DNA of 64,000 nucleotides from Apoderus coryli (Eukaryota; Arthropoda; Insecta; Coleoptera; Attelabidae), in the NCBI GenBank assembly GCA_911728435.2, contig OU452199.1, forward strand, positions 8,194,860-8,258,859. The letters run 5' to 3'. Under the pieces are notes generated by a model, which worked only from the letters and a program-made list of their open reading frames with translations, was not told the origin of the DNA and did not search any database. Both the position numbers and the translations under genes were made by a program. Numbering within the stretch: the stretch's first letter is position 1; every line of letters starts with the position of its first letter. Below are positions 6,145 to 58,228 of this stretch, piece by piece.

Positions 6145-9018
6145 TCACAATGCATGCCTTCTCAAGATTGGTACAGCAGCCGAAACCATACTACCAAGTG
6201 AATCATGATTGATATCAGAAACACTAGATATGCGGTTAAATACATCACACATATTAAATACAGGAGATCTACATTGAATATTAGTTCTAGCTCTAATGTT
6301 ATAAAAAAGCAAGTTATTTCTGGCATTTTCACGTGGCACCCAAAAACTAACCCGCTCAAGGAGACTACTACAACAGATTTTGTTATTTAATAATTTGAAT
6401 AAAAATACAATTAGTGCTAGGCCCCGTCGCAAATCCAAACTGGAAACGTTAAAACGAGTGGTCAACAACGAATAATTTACACCTTGGTCAGGATAAGTTC
6501 CATCCTCCCGAAAACACAAAAACTTCAAAAATCTTCGTTGGACTCTCTCAATAAGTAATTTATAAGATATATAGTAGGGACACCATACAACTGAACAATA
6601 TTCCAATTTCGAGCGAACATAGGCATAGTATAAAATCATCAAAATATTTAAGTCAGCAAAGGGTTTGGAGCATCTAACAACAAAGCCATAGATTCTTAGA
6701 GCATCGCTTACATTTGAACGAATATGGTCATTAAAAGAAAATTTAGAATCAAACAATACTCCTAAGTCATTCGTAGAATCATAACGTGTAACCGATATGT
6801 CATCAATACAATAATCATAATGCAGAGGCGTTTTCTTCCGCGTATATGTAACTACCTTACATTTGTCGGGGTTCAAATACAAACGGTTCGCAGCACACCA
6901 AAGTCTTATGGCATCCAGACAAAGCTGTAAACTTTCACAGTCCTCAGCACTGTTTACAGACTTAAAAATCTTAAGATCGTCGGCGAAAAAGAGACCCGAA
7001 CATGTCAACTCCAGAGCCAAATCGTTGATAAAAATTAAAAATAAAAGAGGACCTAAATTGGACCCCTGTGGTACTCCCGAGACAGCCTTATAACAATATG
7101 AGTCGAAACCATACAATGATACATATTGATATCTTTCAGACAAATACGAGGAAAAAAGTGATACTAAACTCGGTCCAAAACCAAAACCCTCCAACTTCTT
7201 CAGCAACACAACATGACTTATTCGATCAAACGCCTTGGCAAAGTCCGTGTAAACTGCATCCACCTGACCACATCTATCCAACTCATCACAAACAAACTGC
7301 GAAAATACAGCCAAATTTGTGACAGTCGACCGCTGCGGCATAAAGCCATGTTGCATGTGCGTTATTTGATTTCTCACTTGAGGAAAAATGCGATTATATA
7401 TAACAATTTCAAATAGCTTTGAAAAATTAGATAATATTGAAATTGGTCTATAATTCGATACCGAGTCTCGATCACCACTCTTAAAGACAGGACATACTTT
7501 GGCCTTCCTCCATTTAGTAGGGAATACTTCTGATTTGAGAATAAGATTATAAAGCATACATAGTGGTCGCGCCAAAACATAAGCACAATCTTTTACCAAA
7601 AATGATGGAATAGCATCTGGTCCTGCTGTAAACTTGTTTTTAAGCTTTCGAGAAGCCAAAATAATATCTTCCTCAGTGATATTACCAATAAATATCTGGG
7701 ACGCAAAATCGATTCGAGGCAGTAGCAAATCTATCATGTCTTCATCATGACTCACAAACACACTCTCAAAATACTGAGCAAAACTGTTGACAATCGCCCG
7801 CTGATCACTTAGATCATTATCACCACACTTCATGACCCCTGGTATACGAGTAGCTTTACTACGAGTGCCCACAAATGACCAAAACTTACTTGGGTCTGAT
7901 TTTATGTTCTGCTCGACCTTTCTGATATGAGTAACATAAGCAGCTTTTATTTGTTGTTTGATCATACATCTCAGTCTACTAAACTCAGCATAGTAATACT
8001 GCAAACCGGTACGCTTGAAAGCTTTATGAAATTTAGCCTTACATTTTATATTTGTGATAATTTCGGAGCTATACCAATGAGGATACTGACGCCTGAACGT
8101 TTTACAAAGAGGTACACTGTCCTCGATAACATTGTACAATCTATTATAAAATACATCAACAGCGTCGTCCGTATTGCTAAAGTTATTCAAAAACTGCCAG
8201 TCAAATTCAAGTAAATCATTATATAATTTTGGATAATCAGCTCTTTTAAAATTGTACAGTTTTCTATTAACGTTTGTTAAAAATGGTTTTTCATTAAATT
8301 TCAAATCATCGAGCTGTATATATAGTGCAGGGTGATATAAAATGTCTTCTCTTATCAACGGCTGACTATCCCTATTAATATTACAACAAACATTTGACAA
8401 TACTAAATCTAGTAATCTACCCATTTCATTCAAGATTTTATTAAACTGAGAACAGTTCATTACATTTAGAAAACCATTAATAACGTTTGTCTCCCGATCA
8501 TTATTGTCTAATAAAGAGTAATTGGTAACATTAAAGTCTCCGACAATTAAGAATTTATTTGCATGCAAATCCTGCAGCTGCTCAAGAGACTCAAAGAATG
8601 ATTCAAATGATTCAAACGCTACCGATGGTGGAATATAAACTACTAATATATACAAACAAACATTAGGCCAAGTACATTTACAGCATAGTAAATCAATATT
8701 TGGAAATGATTCATCAATATCGGTTGTATCAACAACCTGCACCCTAACTGAGTTTCTAACTGCCAAAATTACACCACCCCCATCAACCTTATTAACTAAA
8801 TCAAATTTTCTATCTTTGCGAAAAACACAATAATAATCCGGAAAAATTTCACCACTCGACACGCCTGAATTAAGGAAAGTTTCAGTTAATGCCACAAAAT
8901 CATACTCACATTCACTAACAGTCGCAAAAAAATCATGAGTCTTTGTACGAAGCCCTCTAACATTTTGATAATAACACGTGAGAGTCTCTATTCGATCGGT
9001 ACTGCTGAGCCCGTCTAG
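6145..9018 (-). CDS. LINE ORF2: apurinic-type endonuclease plus reverse transcriptase
   Basis: The frame is open from 9021 down to the stop at 6145, about 957 residues. It begins with LDGLSSTDRIETLTCYYQNV and has no in-frame ATG until 8460, beyond the endonuclease active site. The endonuclease shows QNVRG, the TET acid, GGGV, IVGDFN, LLDLVLSN and the YHPAL histidine. The reverse transcriptase shows GPDAIP, NYRPIS, the DFAKAFD aspartate, GVPQGSNLGP, FADD, LNPDKCK and LGVLFDS, followed by a thumb with SKLEYCSVVW and VQRRFLKFLC. It nicks target DNA and copies LINE RNA in place. Its frame is exactly -1 relative to ORF1, so translation by frameshift or by non-AUG restart is needed. No internal stop or frameshift was found. 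Confidence 0.88.
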   Translation of the reverse strand, partial: LDGLSSTDRIETLTCYYQNVRGLRTKTHDFFATVSECEYDFVALTETFLNSGVSSGEIFPDYYCVFRKDRKFDLVNKVDGGGVILAVRNSVRVQVVDTTDIDESFPNIDLLCCKCTWPNVCLYILVVYIPPSVAFESFESFFESLEQLQDLHANKFLIVGDFNVTNYSLLDNNDRETNVINGFLNVMNCSQFNKILNEMGRLLDLVLSNVCCNINRDSQPLIREDILYHPALYIQLDDLKFNEKPFLTNVNRKLYNFKRADYPKLYNDLLEFDWQFLNNFSNTDDAVDVFYNRLYNVIEDSVPLCKTFRRQYPHWYSSEIITNIKCKAKFHKAFKRTGLQYYYAEFSRLRCMIKQQIKAAYVTHIRKVEQNIKSDPSKFWSFVGTRSKATRIPGVMKCGDNDLSDQRAIVNSFAQYFESVFVSHDEDMIDLLLPRIDFASQIFIGNITEEDIILASRKLKNKFTAGPDAIPSFLVKDCAYVLARPLCMLYNLILKSEVFPTKWRKAKVCPVFKSGDRDSVSNYRPISILSNFSKLFEIVIYNRIFPQVRNQITHMQHGFMPQRSTVTNLAVFSQFVCDELDRCGQVDAVYTDFAKAFDRISHVVLLKKLEGFGFGPSLVSLFSSYLSERYQYVSLYGFDSYCYKAVSGVPQGSNLGPLLFLIFINDLALELTCSGLFFADDLKIFKSVNSAEDCESLQLCLDAIRLWCAANRLYLNPDKCKVVTYTRKKTPLHYDYCIDDISVTRYDSTNDLGVLFDSKFSFNDHIRSNVSDALRIYGFVVRCSKPFADLNILMILYYAYVRSKLEYCSVVWCPYYISYKLLIERVQRRFLKFLCFREDGTYPDQGVNYSLLTTRFNVSSLDLRRGLALIVFLFKLLNNKICCSSLLERVSFWVPRENARNNLLFYNIRARTNIQCRSPVFNMCDVFNRISSVSDINHDSLGSMVSAAVPILRRHAL

Positions 9019-9776
9019 TTTAAATTATTATTACTTACTACAACTCTAGGAGTCCCACCCACGTATCGTATCCTAAGATTCTCTTCACCGTTCGCCTGGC
9101 GTTGCTGCAATTCGTCCTTGACAGATTTATAATACAACTGTTGCCTTTTCGTACGATCATAAGAAACATTGACCATTCTATAACGTGTATTCCTCAAGAT
9201 CTTTGCCTTCTTGATAACGTCAGACACCTGCCTAGAATTACCCAGCGATAATTTTAAAGGTCTGTTCTTACCCTGCACAAATTTTCCCAATCGAAAAGGC
9301 TTAAAGTTTTGCTGGTCGATAGAAACACTCATGCTCTGCATTATATCCTTCACTACATCAACATCTTTAGCTTCTCGTTCCTGCGTAGGACGCTGTTGAT
9401 CTTGTTCAGGAACATTAAAAAAAACTATATTACCAGAACGCGCATTTCTTTCCTGAATTTCCTGTACTACATCCTCGAATAATTTATCAGAGGGTGCAGG
9501 TGGTTGCTGATCGCGACTGGAGAATTCCGCTCTCAGATTAGTGATCTCATCTTGAAGCTGAATGATGAGTGCCTTCAAACCCCTAAAATCGCCAGCCACA
9601 GCACGGCATGCTACACAAGACCAATCATAGCCCTTATTAGCATTCAGAGCTCTCACCTCATTGGAGCTTAAGTCCACACATGTGTTTTTAAAGTATTTCT
9701 TGCATATACAACAACGTACCATAAGAATCTGATCATATGATCTTTCGCAACACGCACACAACAGCATCGACGGCAT
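9015..9776 (-). CDS. LINE ORF1 protein: PHD-like zinc finger, coiled coil, RNA-binding domain
   Basis: The protein of 253 residues starts at ATG 9776. Residues 7-60 form a cysteine-rich finger of PHD type (CACC, CCIC, then WSCVAC), but the usual histidine of the FHxxC signature is replaced (YFKNTC). Residues 70-95 are a predicted coiled coil (LIIQLQDEITNLRAEF). Residues 115-250 form the nucleic-acid-binding region seen in CR1-type ORF1 proteins, with IVFFNVPE, FRLGK, RPLKL and a basic DRTKRQQLYYKSVKDEL stretch. By family knowledge it packages LINE RNA. The last codons are AAT TTA AAC TAG, which create a -1 slippery site (see 9018-9024). Confidence 0.85.
   Translation of the reverse strand: MPSMLLCACCERSYDQILMVRCCICKKYFKNTCVDLSSNEVRALNANKGYDWSCVACRAVAGDFRGLKALIIQLQDEITNLRAEFSSRDQQPPAPSDKLFEDVVQEIQERNARSGNIVFFNVPEQDQQRPTQEREAKDVDVVKDIMQSMSVSIDQQNFKPFRLGKFVQGKNRPLKLSLGNSRQVSDVIKKAKILRNTRYRMVNVSYDRTKRQQLYYKSVKDELQQRQANGEENLRIRYVGGTPRVVVSNNNLN
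9018..9024 (-). promoter_or_regulatory. Candidate -1 ribosomal frameshift heptamer (T TTA AAC)
   Basis: On the minus strand the last sense codons of ORF1 are AAT TTA AAC, followed at once by the stop TAG. The heptamer T TTA AAC in the ORF1 frame fits X XXY YYZ exactly. A one-base slip gives TTT AAA CTA GAC, which is the ORF2 frame and stays open to 6145. The heptamer is one of the best-known efficient sites in viral systems. I could not make out a convincing downstream pseudoknot by eye. Confidence 0.6.
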
Positions 9777-23468: not shown

Positions 23469-24292
23469 CTTTTTTTTTTTTTTTTTTGAAAGGGTCCGTA
23501 CGACTTAAGTCCCCGGTTTCACTGCAGCCTCATGGGCTTATTGTGAAAAATCCCCGTATATTATGCCACCCAATCCAGCAGCCCTGTACCCTCCACTAAC
23601 TTGTGGAGTTCAGTTATGTGTTGGGTGTCAATATCTGCTGGCGCAATCAGCGAATGCCCAAAGATAGCGTGTCTTCTTCGTTGTAGAACTACACACTCAC
23701 ATATTACATGGTAAGCTGTTTCAACTGCCCCATTACACAATCTGCATTGCAGGTCCCCATTGTACAGCCCCATCTTATTTAGGTGGTCTCTCAGAGCGCA
23801 ATGCCCAGTAAGGAGTCCCATAGTTATTCGCATCTGACTCCTGCTTAATGATAGCAGTTTTCCAGTGCGTTTTGTTGCGGCACCAGGTATAAACCTCTTC
23901 CCATGCTCCTGCTTGGGAATATGTTCCCAATATCTCTGGTGCTCGCTTTTGGCCCAGCACTTGAGGAGTTCCCTCGCCGTTCTTTTAGACAAGCCCAGCG
24001 CAGGTTCCGTGCCAGTATATGTGGTTTCAGAGGCTTGTCTAGCCAGCCAATCCGCTCTCTCGTTGCCTTCTATTCCCGAGTGCCCCGGGACCCACACTAG
24101 ATTAACCCTATTGTGGTCCGCCAAGGCCCTAAGTTCTGTTTGGCATTCCCATACCAGTTTGGTTGTAACCTTGGGGCTTCTCAGAGCCTTTAAGGCCGCC
24201 TGGCTATCTGAACATATATTGATTCGCTTGTTTGTATAAGCCCTCAATCTGTTTAGTTTTGCACATTGCAGAATTGCAAACACTTCCGCTTG
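23469..24292 (-). mobile_element. 5'-truncated RNase H-bearing LINE with perfect target duplication
   Basis: The insertion is bounded by a perfect 12-bp duplication, AAAATACAACTT, at 23457-23468 and 24293-24304. On the minus strand it ends in a poly(A) tail (T run at 23469-23488). It contains only the C-terminal RNase H part of ORF2. The exact duplication and uninterrupted frame show a recent insertion. It is a different family from the CR1-type LINE at 5906, which has an ATT tail and no RNase H. Confidence 0.88.
23561..24292 (-). CDS. RNase H domain and zinc knuckle of a LINE ORF2 (5'-truncated)
   Basis: About 243 residues are in frame from the truncation point to the stop at 23561. The RNase H domain shows QAEVFAILQC (catalytic Glu), SDSQAALKAL (Asp) and VWVPGHSGIEGNERADWLA (His and Asp). 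A C-terminal segment GLLTGHCALRDHLNKMGL is followed by a CCHC-type knuckle, CRLCNGAVETAYHVICEC. This order is typical of I/LOA-group non-LTR elements, where RNase H degrades the RNA of the RNA-DNA hybrid. The endonuclease and reverse transcriptase are missing, so the fragment is not autonomous. Confidence 0.85.
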   Translation of the reverse strand, partial: QAEVFAILQCAKLNRLRAYTNKRINICSDSQAALKALRSPKVTTKLVWECQTELRALADHNRVNLVWVPGHSGIEGNERADWLARQASETTYTGTEPALGLSKRTARELLKCWAKSEHQRYWEHIPKQEHGKRFIPGAATKRTGKLLSLSRSQMRITMGLLTGHCALRDHLNKMGLYNGDLQCRLCNGAVETAYHVICECVVLQRRRHAIFGHSLIAPADIDTQHITELHKLVEGTGLLDWVA

Positions 24293-24322
24293 AAAATACA
24301 ACTTTATTTGTTGTACATAATA

Positions 24323-25571
24323 CGAGGGTTGCCTTTTATATTTCGGGATTAAAGAACAAAAACAAATATTAATCATCGAAAATCACTTTATTGTTTTTCA
24401 AAATATTTCCCATGAAGATCTATACACTTTTGCATGCGTTTGAACCAATTGTGGAAGCACTTTTGCCACTCTGATTGAGGTATCTCCAAAACATGCATTC
24501 TGAATGCAGCAACCAGTTCTTGAGGTGTCGAAAAACGTTGACCTCTTCGTTTGTTTTTTTACACCGGGAATAAAAAGAAGTCATTCGGTGCCAAGTCAGG
24601 ACTATACCGCGGATGACTCATCAAATCGATGTTTTGGGTGCTCAAAAATGCAGTTGTTTGAGCCGAGGTGTGAGAGCTCGCATTGTCGTGGTGAAGAGTG
24701 ATCCGTCTTCGGCGGTTGGTTTTCCTGATTTCTTGGAAGACAACTGGCAAACAAATGGTTGTATACCACTCAGAATTGACTGTTCTGCGTTGTTCTAGTT
24801 GTACGGTTGCGCCATGTCCAGTTTTTCCGAAAAAACAGGCGACCATTTGCTTGGAAGTGCTTCGTGCGCGAACAACTTTTGTTGGATTTGGCTCATCTTG
24901 AAACATCCATACAGTCGACTACTGTTTACTTTCGGGCTCATACGCGTAAATCCACGATTCATCACTTGTCACGATGTCATAGGCGGGTTTGGAAGCACCG
25001 CGATCGTATTTTTGGAGCATTTCTTTCGACCAATCGACACGAGCCTTTTTTTGAGCGATTGACAAATTGTGTGGGATCCAACGCGAACAATTTTTTTTGA
25101 CAGTCAAATGTTTATGCAATATTGAATGTATGCTGGTCCCAGTAATGCCTAAGGTTGTCTCAATCTCTTGATAGGTCACATGACGATCTTGCAATATCAG
25201 TTCGCGCACAGCATCAATGGTTTTCGGAACAACAACTGATTTTGGATGACCTTCACGAAATTCGTCTTGGAGTGGTCCTTGATGGAGCTTCATCGCCAAA
25301 AATTGAATTAAGTTCATCCATGCACTGTTGCTGAGTTAATCCACGTCGAATGTTGTAAAAAAATAATCGCACGAAAATGTTCACGATTGAATTCCATTTT
25401 TGGGACGAGATGAATCTTTTAAGTTACTGTAAACAACAGAAATAGCGCTCGTATGTCAAAACGTTCTGAGTACGTATAACCTCAAAAATGTCCAACTTTA
25501 CGATAGAGCTGTCAGTTGCCAGAATGCAACACCAGGGTTGCCAAATCCCGACATATAAAAGGCAACCCTCC
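24323..25571 (-). mobile_element. Mariner-family transposon with TA target duplications
   Basis: The ends are inverted repeats: CGAGGGTTGCCTTTTATAT at the left and the complement of GGAGGGTTGCCTTTTATAT at the right. TA lies on both sides (24321-24322 and 25572-25573). The length, 1249 bp, is normal for mariner. The transposase is on the minus strand and is disabled. A deleted relative lies at 40499. This element sits only 16 bp to the right of the RNase H LINE's duplication, so the two are side by side rather than nested. Confidence 0.9.
24388..25397 (-). pseudogene. Mariner transposase, frameshifted and partly deleted
   Basis: Reading starts at ATG 25397 (MEFNREHFRAII) and ends at the stop 24388-24390 (KCIDLHGKYFEKQ). 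A frameshift lies in the T run near 25360. A deletion near 25280 removes the VYRWYGEFNRGR helix that survives in the copy at 40499, and another frameshift falls near 24910. The catalytic triad is still visible as TSDESWIY, LHHDNASSHTS and YSPDLAPNDFFLFP, the D,D34D pattern of mariner. An active enzyme would cut and paste the element at TA sites. The frame breaks mean this copy cannot make one. Confidence 0.85.
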
Positions 25572-29239: not shown

Positions 29240-30740
29240 ATTTATTTATTTAACAATTCGGGGTACACACAGATCAAAGATCCAAAACAGTACCCACAGA
29301 ATAATGTACATGTTCAGTGGGTTAATCAATAGAACTTAAAAAAAAAACAAATCATACATAAGAGTGCAAATACAATAGTTAGTTAATCATGTTTCTTTCA
29401 AATATATTAAATGTATATTTAGACATAGTGAGAAAATCGAAATCCACAATCATGAATTAAAAGTCTTTAACATCCTACAGATAGCAGAATTTTGTCCAGC
29501 ATTAGTTCGTCTAAATGGAATAACAAATAACTCATTGTTCCTCAAAGTTCTAAGTGGCTCGTTAAAAATAATGTTTTCTAAAATAGAATCTGACTGCAGT
29601 AAGCCTTTTAAAATCTTAAATATAAATAATAAATCAGAGAGTTGCCCTCTCTTTTGCAATGATATTATTGAATATCTTCGCATAATGGTATTATAATTCA
29701 CGGGAAAACTCAGTATGATGTCGGGCTTATATGCTAAGTATTTCAAAAACTTATGTTGTATACTCTCGATACGTTGAATATAGCACGCATATTGCGGACA
29801 CCACACTGTTGATGCAACACTCAGCTTTCCGTAAACGAGAGAATAATATAAAGAATTGTAGGATTCTTGAAATCTCTGGAATTTCTAATAATAAATCCCA
29901 GAGTTCTGTTACAGCTAGTTAGAAGTGCGTCAATATGTTGCTTAAACATCATTTTATTATCCATGATTACGCCCAGATCTCTCACTTCTGCGACCTTAAC
30001 CAACGAATGGTTTCCAATAGTGTAGTCGCAATCATGGATATTGTTATTTCTAGCAACGCACTTTAGCAAATTCAAAAATAAACTGTAATACTCAACCAAC
30101 CTATCCAAATCATCCTGCAATAGCTTGCTGTCATTAAGATTAGACACAGTTTTATATAATTTTAGGTCGTCTGCATAAAGTTTAAATTGGGAATTTTTGA
30201 TTTTTTATATAATAAAAAACAGAGGACCCAGATGATTACCCTGAGGAACACCAGATGGTACATTAAAAGCTTCAGAGTCAAAATTGTATAAAGAAACAAC
30301 TTAGCAAGTCATCCGTAACACCGATCTCAGCAAGCCGATCCATCAATATTTGGAGACTAATTTTATCAAACGCCTTACTGAAATCAGTGTAGATAGCGTC
30401 CACTTGCACTCGGTCATCCATTTTTGATATTACGTAATCCGTAAAATCTATCAAATTTGTTTCGATAGAACGCTTAAGAAAAAAACCGTGCTGTTCTGGA
30501 ATTATATGACGTTTAGTTTTATCAAAAATAATTTCATAAATTATTTTCTCAAAAACTTTACTAAAAATGTTTAGCTTACAAATAGGACGATAATTTTTTA
30601 TATCTCTCTTATCTCCACTTTTAAATAATGGTATCACAAATGATTTATTCCATTCGGCTAGGAAGATCCCATTTGCAATAGATTTATTGAATATTAAATA
30701 CAAAGGTTTTATTAAATTCTCACGGCTATTTTTTATAAAT
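29240..30740 (-). pseudogene. CR1/Jockey-type LINE fragment B
   Basis: The minus-strand copy begins within the fingers (ENLIKPLYLIFNKSIANGIF). It continues with FKSGDKRDIKNYRPI, EQHGFFLKRSIETNLIDF, VDAIYTDFSKAFDKIS, an ADDLKLYKT catalytic motif near 30160, VRDLGVIMDNKMMFKQHI and a thumb ending YSIISLQKRGQLSDLLFIFK. Frameshifts lie near 30290 and 29815. The 3' end carries (TAAA)n at about 29243-29258 rather than an ATT tail, so it is a different subfamily from fragment A. It may have inserted at or into fragment A. Confidence 0.75.
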
Positions 30741-30872
30741 ATAACATAACATAACATTGTTTCCATTTTCTCCGAGAGTCGCTGTCATTGTCCCAGGATA
30801 GACTCGCAGGGATACTAAACATTGTAGTTTTCGCACTGCACCATATTATCTTATTTATGAATTGATTATAAA

Positions 30873-39345: not shown

Positions 39346-40498
39346 TTTCTGAAGACCATAAACAGGTAAAATATAAGACATTCTCAATTATACTTAAGGA
39401 TTTGAAAATCGGTAGACTTATTGTATAAATTAGAACAATTTTATTTTACTCTATCTAAACTTAAAAATTTTATATTTGCCCGTAATCAATTACACTTTTT
39501 TTTTCTTTAGAGCTGAACAATAATTTCCAAATTAGAAAATATATTTCAAAATAATTTTAGGTTAAGGTTATTTTATACATTAAAATTAATCAATAAAAAT
39601 TTTAAAAATATAAATAAAATGATTATATGGAAACATGAATAAAAGCAAATAAGTAATTGTTTGTTTTTATGATTCAGAAAGATATAATTCTATTATAAAA
39701 TAATTCTATTACTCCCCTGTTCTTTACCTATCCTGTAATTTCAATGAAACGTAAATACGGATCTGTCGTGTATATTAAAAAATGGCTACCACCTGCCTCG
39801 CACAGGGCAATAGAAAGTGGTGGGTGCTCATATTCTCGTTATTTATTCTATGCTTTTGCTTTGCACGGGAGAGAAGATTAATTATGTAGTAATTATAAAA
39901 ATTACACAATGTTTTAAAAGTATACTATAATACTGTCAAATTGTATCCATTTCTAAAAGGCTGGCACAAATATCTCGCCATTATATGGATTGCAGTGTAT
40001 CAGTAAGTAACGGTTTCCTCTTTCCGTTTTTGGTTATATTGGGTAAGGAAATGGCAGACGCCAAGATCCTGTGTTATAATATTACACGCACTGCCGCTGA
40101 AATAGAAATATAACTATATTTTCCGTTTTGCGCGTCCAAATAGAATATTGTAGGGATTTTTTCTGTTTATGTATATTTGGATACAAATACAAACATTTTA
40201 GAAAATTTATAGTTGGTGGGCAGGAAAAAAAATAGGAAATGTGTACCAAATTCGTTTTGGGTTGTTAGTTTTGGCGTTACATTATTTATGTGAATATGCT
40301 TTTTATGGCGACACTTATAAAATACACAATACAATTTGGCTACAGAAATGTGTGAAAATATGGTTCATTTTTAAGTTTGTAAATATTTCTGAGAAACTGT
40401 TTTGCTCAAATTTATTGCATTTGCATCTTTAACATGTCTGTGCCAATTTGATTTTTATACTTTTGTGACTTCTAGGATGAAGAACTCGGTGGTACATA
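39346..40498. other. No recognisable gene
   Basis: AT-rich sequence. The frame at 40241-40432 shows no domain. Confidence 0.45.
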
Positions 40499-40860: not shown

Positions 40861-41303
40861 TAAGTACTTATATATCAATTATATTGACAGACTAAGGATT
40901 ACAGGGTGTTCGCAAACTGTGTGATCTGCTAGTACTAATAAAAATAGGCATAATTGAATTTTCTGAAATATGACAACCTGTATATTATCTAATATTCTGA
41001 AAGACAATCAAATTTTCTTTCAAATGATAGTCGCTGTATGGCGAGATGACATTTTCATTGTCTGGCCTCATGGACGTGACACTGTTCAGGAGTCTCTTAA
41101 CTATGTAAATTCTCTCCATTCTAATATCCCGTTAACAATAATTGTTGATATTATTGAAGAAAACATTTTTAAACTTTCTTATCAGTCGTAAACTACTTAG
41201 GTTGGTTGAATATTCAGCATATTATATAGGTATCGAACAAATACTGGCAGGTATCTGAAAGCTCATTCACGTCACAATCCAGTCATCCGTAATAAATTAA
41301 TTA

Positions 41304-41750
41304 AGAATTGCTTGTTACATAAAGCAACAAGACTTTAAGTTATGTTGGAAATTTGTTTCACACTACCATGCTTCCACCAGACGCCCGTTTCGTCGATCCA
41401 CGACTCATCAGTGGTGACCGGTAGGCAGTGTGCCCAAATTTCCAACATTTACAAAGAGCTTATACTAGCACGAGAATTGATTGAGAGAGAGAGATGTTTT
41501 TGGCGACACCTAGCGTGAACAGGCAATATGCCGGGTGAAACACAATTCACAAACGATGGCCGGACAAGAATTAACAACTCCATTATATCCTATTGCCAAC
41601 ACTAGATGCGCCCGAATCCCCTAGCAGGGAGAATTTATTTAAGAAGAAGAAGAATGGAGTTGTTACTTCTTGTCCGGCCATCGTTTGTGAACTGTGTTTC
41701 ACCCGGCATATTGCCTGTTCACGCTAGGTGTCGCCAAAAACATCTCTCTC
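41304..41750 (-). mobile_element. 447-bp non-autonomous element carrying a hammerhead ribozyme
   Basis: A perfect 13-bp duplication, AATAAATTAATTA, flanks it (41291-41303 and 41751-41763), and the host Penelope sequence continues on both sides. On the minus strand the order is a 100-bp inverted-repeat pair (41750-41480), a long hairpin with a hammerhead core (41448-41342), and a small terminal hairpin (CTTGTT..AACAAG, 41328-41308). It has no protein coding capacity. A partial, decayed relative lies at 30873-30962. The length of the duplication suggests retrotransposition by a LINE- or Penelope-type machinery; this is inferred. Confidence 0.7.
41342..41448 (-). ncRNA. Type I hammerhead ribozyme in an extended hairpin
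   Basis: Minus strand. The core C3-A9, CTGATGA, is at 41411-41405. Stem II is GTCG/CGAC with loop TGGAT (41404-41392). GAAA is at 41391-41388. Stem III is A-C-G paired with C-G-U around a GG loop (41388-41381). The cleavage residue C17 is at 41380. Stem I pairs 41412-41417 with 41379-41374 (ACCACT-type, one G·U). An internal loop follows, then five pairs (41420-41424 with 41367-41363), four more (41429-41432 with 41362-41359), and a perfect 14-bp outer stem (41435-41448 with 41355-41342). Every invariant residue is present. Minimal stem III is typical of retroelement hammerheads, which often cleave best as dimers. Confidence 0.8.
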
Positions 41751-41753
41751 AAT
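41480..41753. repeat. 100-bp inverted repeat with 69-bp spacer
   Basis: The arms at 41480-41583 and 41653-41753 are complementary with two or three mismatches and one 4-base indel in a GA run. The shared sequence includes GGCGACACCTAGCGTGAACA and GATGGCCGGACAAGAA. Near identity of the arms points to a young or gene-conversion-maintained structure. It could be a separate MITE, but it lies wholly within the 13-bp duplication that also encloses the ribozyme hairpin. Confidence 0.85.
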
Positions 41754-42010
41754 AAATTAATTAGTTCATCGTGTATTTCCTCGGTGCCAACCTGAATCTC
41801 TTGAATCATACCTATTACATGATACGTTTGTTTTACCCAAAGAACCTCCAATAACTATAAATTCCCACACCAATAACAGTAGTGAGCCTCAGTATCCAGT
41901 TGCTCCAGTCGTCTTCCATATGTACAAGATCACTCACCGCATCTGAAGTGTGGTTGAAAACTATAATATTAATTCGCAACTTGTTCAAAATTATTCGATT
42001 ATTTAAGATC

Positions 42011-42490
42011 AATAAATGATCGTATCCTCCTCTCAAAGCCCAAAAACAAAAATGCCGGAAAATTTCAACCCGCTTAAAGGAACATGAAAGATAGGTCAGA
42101 AAAGCACAAAGGTGCTCATAGCTACACTGACGAATTGGCTTGCTTGATTATCCAAATATTCAAACTTCGAAGATCTCAAGAGTACACAAGCAGATTAATA
42201 AGATATGCACCGTTTCAGAAGAAAATGAATGGGATTTTATACAATTCGTTTTTTAATGTAAACGTAAACACACAGTTCTACTGGGGAAGATCTGTTGCTA
42301 CTGCTTCGACTTCCGTTCGCCTCTTCAATTGCGGAAAGAACCGCACGACAGTGAAAATTTGTTTTCAACAAGGTAAAACGTCATAAGACTTAACAAATTC
42401 ATCGTTTATGCAAAAGCGCTTTGTGCAACAGTACAATACAACAATTATAGTTTGATCATGAATTCATATGCAAATTGTTTAGATTATGTA
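42011..42490. other. No recognisable gene
   Basis: A 100-codon open frame at 42084-42386 (+) has no recognisable domain. I cannot tell whether it is real. Confidence 0.4.
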
Positions 42491-42869
42491 AAGGTGCGTC
42501 CAGACTTGTAACAAACCCAAGAACCAACGTCGGTCGTCACGAACATCAATGCAATGCATTCCCGCAACGCACAAAGCTGTAACATCACCGCGTTCCATCG
42601 ATAGTCAGTAATCTGCGGTCACATCAAAAGAAATGTTGCGCCGTCTCGTTTGCTGCTTTGTTGTAAGTTCGCCAAAATCTTCGACTAATCGCCCTGCAAT
42701 TTCCGTTGTAGCGCACCAATGAATTCGGCGCAGTCACTAATCGGAAAGCCGTTATGGTCGCGCCGCTTGATTGTATTTTTTTAAATAGCTCCATGTTCGC
42801 AACGATGTGCGCAGCGATGTTCACCTCGATGTTCGCGACGAGGTTTTGTTGCAAGTTTGTACGCACCTT
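42491..42869. mobile_element. 379-bp GC-richer MITE
   Basis: The ends are inverted repeats: AAGGTGCGTCCAGACTTGTAAC at the left, and the complement of AAGGTGCGTACAAACTTGCAAC at the right. The interior is GC-richer than the surroundings and contains repeated GTTCGC/GATGTTC units. A clear target duplication could not be identified, so the superfamily (hAT, P or other) is undecided. Confidence 0.7.
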
Positions 42870-49379: not shown

Positions 49380-50965
49380 TATTAAATAAATCAAAAAATT
49401 AAAAATAATTTGTAGACTGGTAAACAAAACATAAGAATAATAATTAATACATACAGGTACATCGTCAAATAAATAAATAAATCAATTAAGATACTTAAAG
49501 TTAATTAATTAAGTAAATATTCTACAGTTCAATATATATACACATATATACAAAACACACAATACAAACTACTACCATCCAGGGTGTGAATCGCTCAAAA
49601 AGTAATGCACATTAAAAAAGTCACCTACTGTATAAAAAGCATTTTCTAACAAATACGTCTTTAGAGCTTTACGGAATCGAGGAAGGGATGATAGCAATTT
49701 GATTTCCATTGGCAGATGGTTGTGCATTTTTTTTTGCATCGGAGGATGGGGCTGGCAGATAAAGATCATGTTCGGAGGTTCTAAGGAGCTAGTTATGGAA
49801 TGGTCTTTCAGAGACATCTGACAGGTGTTTGCGGATTAAGCAGACCGATTCCAATATGAATAAGGAAGGTAGTTAGTATTTTAAATTTTCTGAAGAAGTC
49901 CTGGCAATGGGCTCTATAGTGCAATCTCAGAGAGTATCGAATAGCTCTTTTTTGATATCTAAAAATACGCCCAAATTGCGTTGCACAGCATGTATCCCAG
50001 AATGGGAGCGCGTATCGAAGATGGGTTTCGAAGAATGAAAAGTAGACTGTTATGGAAGTTGACAAGTCAAGTTCTTTGGAAACTGATCTTATCGCAAAAT
50101 AGGCAGAGCTTAATTTTTTTGATAACGCATCAATGTGCAACTTCCACTTCAGGGAGCTGTCAACAACGAGGCCCAGAAACTTCACAGAAGAAATAACTAC
50201 AATAGTGGAATTATTAAGTTCAAAAGACTGCAGCATACCTTTATATGACACAGATTTAGTTTTCGCAGTGTTCAAGCACAACAGGTTAGAGTAACACCAT
50301 GATTTGATGGTGATTAAGTCTTTGGATATGGTACTATGAAGATCCACACTATCCGGGTCGCACCAAGTGAAACTAGTATCATCAGCAAAGGGACATACTT
50401 TACCGCTGATGTCTAGGCACGTAATGTCGTTGATAAATAGCAAAAACAAAATAGGACCCAACACCGAACCCTGTGGAACTCCACAATCCATCGGCCTGCA
50501 AGAAGACACAGCCGCATTGACCCTCACACACTGACTTCTGTTGCTAAGGTACGACTTAAACAATCCCAGTGGAACCACCTGAATTCCGTAGTGTTGTATC
50601 TTGTTAATTAAGATGTTATGTCTTACACAGTCGAATGCTTTGGAGAAATCACAGAAAATTGATGCTGTAAAGTGAAGATTGTTCAAGTTGGAGTAAACAT
50701 TGTTGAAGACGGAGAATATAGCATCATTAGTGCATTTGTTAGCTAAAAATCCAAGTTGGTGGCTAGCTAATACTTCATATTTGTGCAGAAATGATAGAAG
50801 TCTCCTTTTAACCAGTCTTTCAATGATCTTGGATAGAGTAGATAGAAGTGCAATTGGACGATAGTTTGAAGCTTGATCTTTATCGCCACCCTTGTGCAGA
50901 GGAATTATTATAGATGTCTTAAGGCATTGTGGAAAAATTCCATTTTGGAATGACTTGTTAATTAA
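49380..50965 (-). pseudogene. Jockey-type LINE with near-complete reverse transcriptase
   Basis: On the minus strand it runs from LINKSFQNGIFPQCLKTSII through NYRPIALLSTLSKIIERLV, ASIFCDFSKAFDCVRHNILI (Asp), CGVPQGSVLGPILFLLFIND, FADDTSFTW (catalytic pair) and KFLGLVVDSSLKWKLHIDAL, to a thumb (FETHLRYALPFWDTC, YQKRAIRYSLRL). One frameshift at about 49812 separates the last 81 residues (HNHLPMEIKLLSSLPRFRKA). It is truncated 5' before the endonuclease, so it cannot move itself. It is a different family from the intact LINE at 5906. Confidence 0.82.
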
Positions 50966-57293: not shown

Positions 57294-58228
57294 TCAAAAG
57301 CCAAAGTGTTTGCGAGTCGTCCAGGTACAATCGAGGAACTGAAAGTCAAAATTCGTAAAGAAGTTGAAGGAATAGACGAAGGTTTGCTCCGCCGTGTAGA
57401 TTGTTTTATCGGAGTCGTTTAGGCGGTTTGGCCTCCCCTCACTTCGACCTGCAGAAGATCTTTTGTGACTGACTCTAATCTCGGTTAGGCCTATCTTTTT
57501 GAGATGGTACTTCACTGGGTGGTGTCCCGTAAAAAGGCCTGTAATTCGCCTTAGGTCGCTTCTCTCCAGTTGGATAAGCTTCCCTTCGTTGGCCTCTGAA
57601 GGTTTGATAAACCTTTTTATTGTCTTAGGCCTGGAATTCCAGTAAGACTTAAGTTGTTCCTTTTCCCATCTCCGAAGTTCTTCCTTCATATGGCTTTTTG
57701 GAAGGCCAAAGATGGGTTCCGGGCCGCAGAATGGAGCGTTTGCGCCCTCTTTTGCAAGTTGGTCCGCCGCTTCGTTCCTCTCTATGCCTTCATGTCCTGG
57801 CACCCATGTCAGATTATTCTTTTTCCCCTGAGCTGCCTGTTGCTTTAGGGTCTGTTTGCATTTCCATGGTAGCTTTGACGTGAAGGTGTAAGACCTGAGT
57901 GCTTTTAATGCAGCTTGACTGTCTGACATAATATTGATCTGCCGTTCCGGGATGCCTTTCTGCAGGCATTCTTGAGCACAACGATTAATAGCGTTGATCT
58001 CTGCTTGCAATATAGTGGGACTTTTCCCGAGAGATTCAGAGAGCCTGCAATTAGGCCCGTATACTCCCATGCCTGTGTTCCCTTGTATTCCTTTTGAACC
58101 GTCCGTATACCAGACGGATGTGTTTTCTGGGAATCATGGTTCCCCATTTAGCCATTTTTGACGGTCTGCAATTACCACTTCAAATGGGATTTCAAAATCA
58201 TGTTTGCGTGGAAAAGCGTCCGACGGTT
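57294..58228 (-). pseudogene. RNase H LINE ORF2 copy 2
   Basis: On the minus strand MGVYGPNCRLSESLGKSPTI, LQAEINAINRC (Glu), SDSQAALKALRS (Asp) and LTWVPGHEGIERNEAADQLA (His, Asp) give a good RNase H domain. KLIQLERSDLRRITGLFTGH follows. The zinc knuckle is deleted: HLKKIGLTEI runs straight into the C-terminal end, which in another frame reads DLLQVEVRGGQTA before a stop. The 5' limit near 58228 is where similarity to 43661-44040 stops. A frameshift lies near 58085. It is not autonomous. Confidence 0.82.

Follow-up and report, generated by a model that had tools for sequence, protein, structure and literature searches.

The hammerhead ribozyme in the window (the whole stretch of 64,000 nucleotides that we analysed) lies within an insertion of a 336-nt repeat. 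It probably belongs to a non-autonomous, non-coding retrozyme of the animal class whose RNA, either circular or multimeric, is copied from both nicked strands of the target by the machinery of a Penelope-like element (PLE). As judged from sequence, the insertion scars of the retrozyme resemble those of a Penelope-type retrotransposon, which suggests what the copying enzyme may be. The new part is the anatomy of the insertions, which have two start sites, one for each side.

The hammerhead and its genomic copies

On the minus strand, from 41448 to 41342, we find CTGATGA, stem II (GTCG/CGAC), GAAA, and stem III (ACG/CGT) with a GG loop. Stem I is extended, with blocks of 6 (inner), 9 (middle), and 14 (outer) pairs. 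These are the elements of a type I hammerhead (a CUGANGA..GAAA..UH core and three stems, open at stem I), and the sequence supports the view that this is a complete one in an extended hairpin. The original prediction had reported every core residue of this type, and both the sequence and the stems match that description. It had also placed the cut between 41380 and 41379, and C17 is indeed at 41380. RNA from this locus would be expected to be cleaved at that site. The window copy has a single ribozyme, which on its own would permit a cut but not the release of a circular unit.

The hairpin has a predicted minimum free energy of -47.9 kcal/mol, as compared to -28.7 +/- 3.4 kcal/mol for shuffled sequences (z = -5.6). 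The Rfam model for these ribozymes (RF00163) aligned end to end at 41374–41417, with a score of 27.6 bits (E = 4.5e-5 in a scan of 201 bases), which does not reach the model's gathering score of 34. Because the window copy scores below 34 bits, an Rfam scan of the whole window at the gathering score returned no entry. We also built our own covariance model from 26 copies (the window copy among them), and it matched a single place in the window, with scores of 122.7 bits (minus strand) and 40.1 bits (plus strand, over the same stretch). By this model, the window contains only one hammerhead.

The 428-Mb genome contains many relatives of this hammerhead. A 121-bp segment has at least 43 matches on 12 contigs (40 of 864 candidates were scored), and the hammerhead core pattern, with up to one mismatch, is found at 2937 places, as compared to 0 for the reversed pattern. 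These counts bear out the view that the hammerhead is more than a chance assembly. A genome-wide Rfam search gave four matches among the 73 scored of 52198 candidates, and two of these were above the gathering score (37.4 and 34.4 bits), so the covariance-model check is passed by two relatives but not by the window copy itself. A single copy in the window might have been an isolated regulatory or decayed hammerhead without any mobile context. The 2937 places in the genome, and the defined insertion with a duplication that is described below, refute this idea, and we give it practically no weight.

The stems are conserved among these copies. In 34 copies that we could delimit, pairing holds in 98.1% of the stem cells, and changes on both sides are seen in 10 of 36 pairs (the mean for shuffles is 3.9, and sliding the partners gives 0–1). 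The genomic copies thus retain their stems via compensatory changes, as expected if the original prediction was correct. The covariation is found in the outer and middle helices of stem I. One of five measures of covariation, further pair types, was not above the shuffles (18 versus 17.6). Few events underlie the two-sided changes, most of which come from four rows of a second family (see below) and a single A-U subfamily within family 1. The first covariation count used 26 of the 34 delimited copies (the other eight have indels or a damaged core), and a recount with all 34 had a similar outcome. (Seven more pattern matches could not be delimited, and L002 at 723, which is among these, does not represent a retrozyme.)

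The forms of stem III include ACGGGCGU and ACGGCCGU, with ACGGCCGU in 26 of the 34 copies. The GG loop that had been described is present in the window copy, but just 3 of the 34 copies have GG. ACGGCCGU is a palindrome, and pairing between two ribozymes could also be possible.

Anatomy of the insertions

The window copy is one 447-bp insertion (41304–41750) with a 13-bp target-site duplication (Table 1). It interrupts an old and decayed PLE: if one copy of the duplication is taken out, the two flanks can be aligned as a single PLE stretch, with stops and gaps. We did not find any open reading frame (ORF) of at least 100 amino acids that overlaps the insertion. The original prediction had the coordinates of the ribozyme part right but covered just this part of a larger insertion, and it missed the 336-nt retrozyme, the target-site duplication, the inverted arm, and the surrounding PLE remnant.

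Table 1. Features of the insertion and its flanks (positions in the window).
Feature	Positions	Strand	Basis or remark
Type I hammerhead with extended stem I	41342..41448	-	Sequence, fold, Rfam, covariation
Catalytic core, RF00163 match; predicted cut 41380/41379	41374..41417	-	Rfam alignment
Left retrozyme arm, spanning about one turn of the 336-nt unit; start site A for cDNA at the low-coordinate end	41304..41645	-	
Small hairpin CUUGUU..AACAAG just upstream of site A	41311..41331	-	Similar hairpin at the same place in family 2 (by eye)
Head-to-head junction of the arms	41646..41652		
Right arm, inverted partial copy, circle ~134 to ~235; cDNA start site B; no ribozyme	41653..41750	+	
Target-site duplication, left copy, AATAAATTAATTA	41291..41303		
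Target-site duplication, right copy, AATAAATTAATTA	41751..41763		
Remnant of a decayed Penelope-like reverse transcriptase, on the left flank	41036..41303	+	tblastn with the young PLE protein
Same PLE remnant, continued to the right of the insertion	41751..42100	+	Follows on from the left part

The window also contains a 916-amino-acid LINE-type ORF with a match to RVT_1 and a weak endonuclease match (6145–8895, minus strand), an adjoining 253-amino-acid ORF without a Pfam match (9015–9776, minus strand), and reverse transcriptase or RNase H fragments that are apparently LINE remnants (23561–24376, 30278–30766, 49808–50686, and 57294–58070, all minus strand). Short matches to the GTGTCGCCA block, which precedes site B, are at 40302–40317 and 42669–42682; perhaps these are remnants of other elements that use the block, or they may be due to chance.

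Several loci in the genome contain tandem units of 336 bp. Metazoan retrozymes are characterised by tandem units of 170–400 nt that are bounded by hammerheads, by duplications of more than 4 bp when these are present, by a GC content of under 45%, by the lack of an LTR, PBS, PPT, or ORF, and by expression as linear and circular RNA. The genomic copies agree in their units and in their duplications (below), and we measured GC contents of 44.6% and 43.5%. In the window copy, there is a single unit with a single hammerhead.

We numbered the unit as a circle, beginning at the predicted cut, and divided each insertion into arms. (For the counts of start sites and of distances to the cut, the arm ends were transferred by hand.) Our first sample was ranked by similarity to the window and contains 31 distinct insertions, after dropping repeat rows (L006, L014, and L016–L020, which repeat L037, L038, and L036). 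Among the 49 arm 3' ends in these insertions, 23 are at site A (near position 80), 21 are at site B (near position 235), 3 are near position 195, and 2 are elsewhere. In other words, 44 of the 49 ends are at one of two fixed positions. The 5' ends of the arms vary, and the longest arm makes 3.7 circuits; the longest insertion has 6.25 circuits over its two arms. The three arms that start near 195 (L003, L012, and L002) possibly mark a minor third entry site.

The two sites are also paired in a regular way. Head-to-head composites make up 18 of the 31 insertions (14 A/B, two A/~195, one A with another position, and one B with another position), and none of the 18 is A/A or B/B. The other 13 insertions have a single arm, which starts at A in six cases, at B in six, and near 195 in one. 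The four composites that are not A/B, each of which has an end at another position, count against our model.

The windows for A and B were set after these 31 insertions had been seen, so a binomial P for this sample has descriptive value only, and a second sample serves as the test. For this we took the first 15 core-pattern places listed on one contig (C1), which were not chosen by similarity, and we dropped L075, L076, L079, L081, L085, and L086 as repeats of L074, L078, L080, L084, and L022. Of the 10 distinct loci, one had already been counted (L086 is L022) and another (L080) is a duplicate of L078. Two of the remaining eight are single-armed (both A), and all six of the composites are A/B. 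Four of the six belong to the second family, with sites at 71–78 and 231–234 of 338 nt. (The A end of L078 is at 68, which is outside the family-1 window of 75–86, and was counted as A.) L080 was considered as an A/A exception and rejected: its flanks match those of L078 (88–92%), and the B end survives in its left flank. It is therefore a duplicated copy that has undergone a deletion. A kilobase-scale duplication thus carries one composite twice, and one of the two copies has a deletion in its left arm.

The second family includes three of the genome-wide Rfam matches (L040–L042) and L049, which lies beside a PLE. It has the same core as family 1, a different stem I, and a unit of 338 nt. Outside of the hammerhead, the only sequence that the two families have in common is a 20-nt block upstream of site B (blastn, E = 0.08), and the hairpin before site A is similar in both families (by eye).

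The regular pairing bears on how the second arm arises. Snap-back self-priming has been proposed for rotifer PLEs (PMC3846280), and head-to-head arms are common here (18 of 31). By our own reasoning, self-priming should repeat the first start and give A/A or B/B, and there are 0 such cases among the 18 composites and the 6 of the second sample. Because the same start would recur on both sides, self-priming fits the scars poorly, and we think it is very improbable. We think just as little of the idea of a satellite-like repeat that is spread by DNA recombination, with the ribozyme as a passenger. It could explain the tandem 336-bp units in several loci and the kilobase-scale duplication that carries a copy, but it would not lead us to expect matches on 12 contigs, target-site duplications, an interrupted PLE remnant, or arms that are head-to-head with fixed 3' ends and variable 5' ends.

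We also compared the 5' ends of the cDNAs to the predicted cut. Just 2 of 47 arms (leaving out two arms of 20 and 29 nt) have a 5' end within 5 nt of the cut, where 1.4 were expected. Cleaved linear monomers therefore did not usually serve as the template. In the predicted minimum-energy fold of the circle, sites A and B are unpaired at the central junction that bears the ribozyme arm. The units within an insertion differ by 0–0.8% in seven young insertions and by up to 6.25% in older ones. We dropped this identity as a proof of circular templates because the young subfamily is itself homogeneous.

Target-site duplications were identified by a score of at least 9, which was reached by 20 of the 31 insertions and by 16 of 930 mismatched pairs of flanks. 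The duplications are 12 bp (eight), 13 bp (seven), 11 bp (two), 9 bp (two), or 14 bp (one), so 15 of 20 are 12–13 bp. The other 11 insertions lack a clear duplication by this score, which counts against our model. The duplications of the retrozyme are AT-rich (83.4% for 18 of the 20, with the two 9-bp ones left out), as are those of the PLE described below (82.6%, n = 7), as compared to 66.4% for the window.

The resident Penelope-like element

When we searched the genome with the peptide of the interrupted remnant, we obtained 66 matches, and after the window itself, a young PLE family leads. Across 29 loci, the longest matches to L052 are 94.8–99.5% identical. Many of the young copies are about 99% identical, so the family was probably active recently. 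The young PLE fragment matches RVT_1 (1.7e-12) and is 46% identical to a protein from Anolis carolinensis. It has 972 homologues at E ≤ 0.001; insect proteins are among the 120 listed, and the named organisms among those 120 are mostly insects. PLEs are characterised by a telomerase-like reverse transcriptase and a GIY-YIG endonuclease. Pfam did not detect GIY-YIG in the fragment, where a GIY-YIG-like motif is seen by eye only; among the 120 homologues listed, one (P0064) carries PF01541 and another (P0057) is named as a predicted GIY-YIG endonuclease. The young copies (L044–L072) have a minimal hammerhead, CTGAAGA..GAAACGTT, over the presumed start of the ORF (near 2535 in locus orientation).

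The PLE copies end at two sites that are 31–35 nt apart. Within the 29 loci, there are eight distinct insertions with both ends in view (L065 was dropped because it is the same insertion as L062). In seven of these, the long site is on one side and the short site is on the other, and the duplications are 12 bp (five) or 13 bp (two). The eighth, the composite L057, departs from this scheme. So, the features expected of a PLE as mobiliser (two internal starts for reverse transcription, head-to-head copies, and AT-rich targets) are found in both the retrozyme and the PLE; within this genome, the comparison covers the resident PLE family only. L057 and the GIY-YIG domain that Pfam did not detect count against our model.

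We also compared the start sites of the PLE to sites A and B and saw no convincing similarity (P = 0.007 in one of eight comparisons). Site B of family 1 ranks first among 336 positions for the PLE's short site, but antisense controls do equally well and family 2 disagrees, so we rejected this likeness. The lack of a convincing match in sequence would seem to count against a role for the PLE.

LINEs can also leave behind variable 5' truncations, inverted pieces of their 5' part, and duplications of similar length. The same retrozyme might have been moved by a LINE, via target-primed reverse transcription with twin priming as in L1, and the window contains LINE-type fragments of reverse transcriptase and RNase H. 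The second of the two starts in twin priming is arbitrary, but here both starts are fixed and complementary. Furthermore, the resident PLE has the scheme of two sites with one per side. We consider the LINE explanation to be improbable.

Our preferred account of an insertion, in which a PLE is the probable protein partner, is as follows. Tandem copies of the retrozyme would be transcribed, and the hammerhead would cut the RNA into units that would be closed into circles, as judged from published retrozymes. The PLE's endonuclease and reverse transcriptase would nick both strands of AT-rich DNA, 12–13 bp apart. Each 3' end would then prime the synthesis of a cDNA from the retrozyme RNA. One cDNA would begin at site A (near 80) and the other at site B (near 235), and each would travel from part of a turn to several turns around the template. 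Finally, the two cDNAs would be joined head to head; the window copy would be one such insertion, into an old PLE.

The template need not be a circle. The PLE machinery might copy the retrozyme from uncleaved linear multimers, and the units in the resulting insertions would look the same as those from a circle. The arms of up to 3.7 units and the composites of up to 6.25 need only a multimer, and most of the RNA that the Anolis PLE inserts in vitro is uncleaved (PMC11167929). On the other hand, published animal retrozymes accumulate as circles (PMC7229834), and a multimer would offer sites A and B many times over. Pairs of the A/A and B/B type should then occur, unless the pairing were imposed by the protein. 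We view linear multimers as a serious alternative, if an unlikely one.

For a circular template, we can tentatively offer a more specific version, to which we give slightly less than an even chance. One circular RNA would be held on a dimer of the PLE's reverse transcriptase, and both subunits would copy it at once, one for each nicked strand, with entry at A or at B for each and up to 6.25 turns before joining. If this bilateral, rolling-circle form of target-primed reverse transcription is correct, then the rule of one A and one B would imply that each insertion derives from one RNA molecule, in retrozymes and PLEs alike.

Comparison with known systems

Which enzyme spreads animal retrozymes is a standing question. 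PLEs have been described as no more than a strong candidate (PMC7229834); it has been stated that LINEs or PLEs must mobilise retrozymes (PMC11722881); and the repeats are reported to have no conserved motif that would help to deduce the autonomous partner (PMC7761336). The scars that we describe reveal two entry sites, as well as a length of duplication that is common to the resident PLE, so the identity of the enzyme can be put to a direct biochemical test. The rule of one site per strand also bears on the integration of PLEs themselves, for which self-priming was proposed (PMC3846280).

The elements most similar to ours are the metazoan non-LTR retrozymes described by Cervera and de la Pena (2020; PMC7229834). 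They have in common with ours a type I hammerhead, a unit of 170–400 nt with low GC content, tandem copies, no coding capacity, and coexisting PLEs that bear hammerheads. In contrast to that account, 18 of 31 insertions here are head-to-head, with two fixed starts and duplications of nearly constant length; two fixed cDNA start sites are not described in the portion of that article available to us. Similarly, among the titles and abstracts listed in our searches of the retrozyme literature (subscription papers were mostly outside these), none mentions fixed start sites in retrozymes. The satellites with hammerheads in newts and salamanders, as summarised in the same article, resemble ours in having tandem units of about 330 nt, a weak stem III, and a proposed cleavage as dimers. 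This likeness is by description only, and the copies that we sampled are dispersed short insertions. As for RF00163 (Hammerhead_1), its core and stems II and III are what align end to end in the window copy, at the score given above.

Among PLEs, those of the Penelope/Poseidon clade are the closest parallel, as far as the available text of the study of PAc from Anolis shows (PMC11167929). The purified protein is reported to cleave both DNA strands at AT-rich sites, with ATT as the most frequent target, and to start cDNA at two internal positions, without an observed difference between strands; PAc also has a hammerhead at the start of its ORF, and the related PLE in this genome has one at its presumed ORF start. 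Rotifer PLEs, as described in PMC3846280, form inverted partial copies with duplications of 8–10 bp (some have none), and a tail is present on one of the inverted repeats. The retrozyme differs from PLEs in that it is non-coding, has its own start sites that are 155 nt apart (instead of 31–35 nt in the resident PLE), and has a hammerhead with a stem III.
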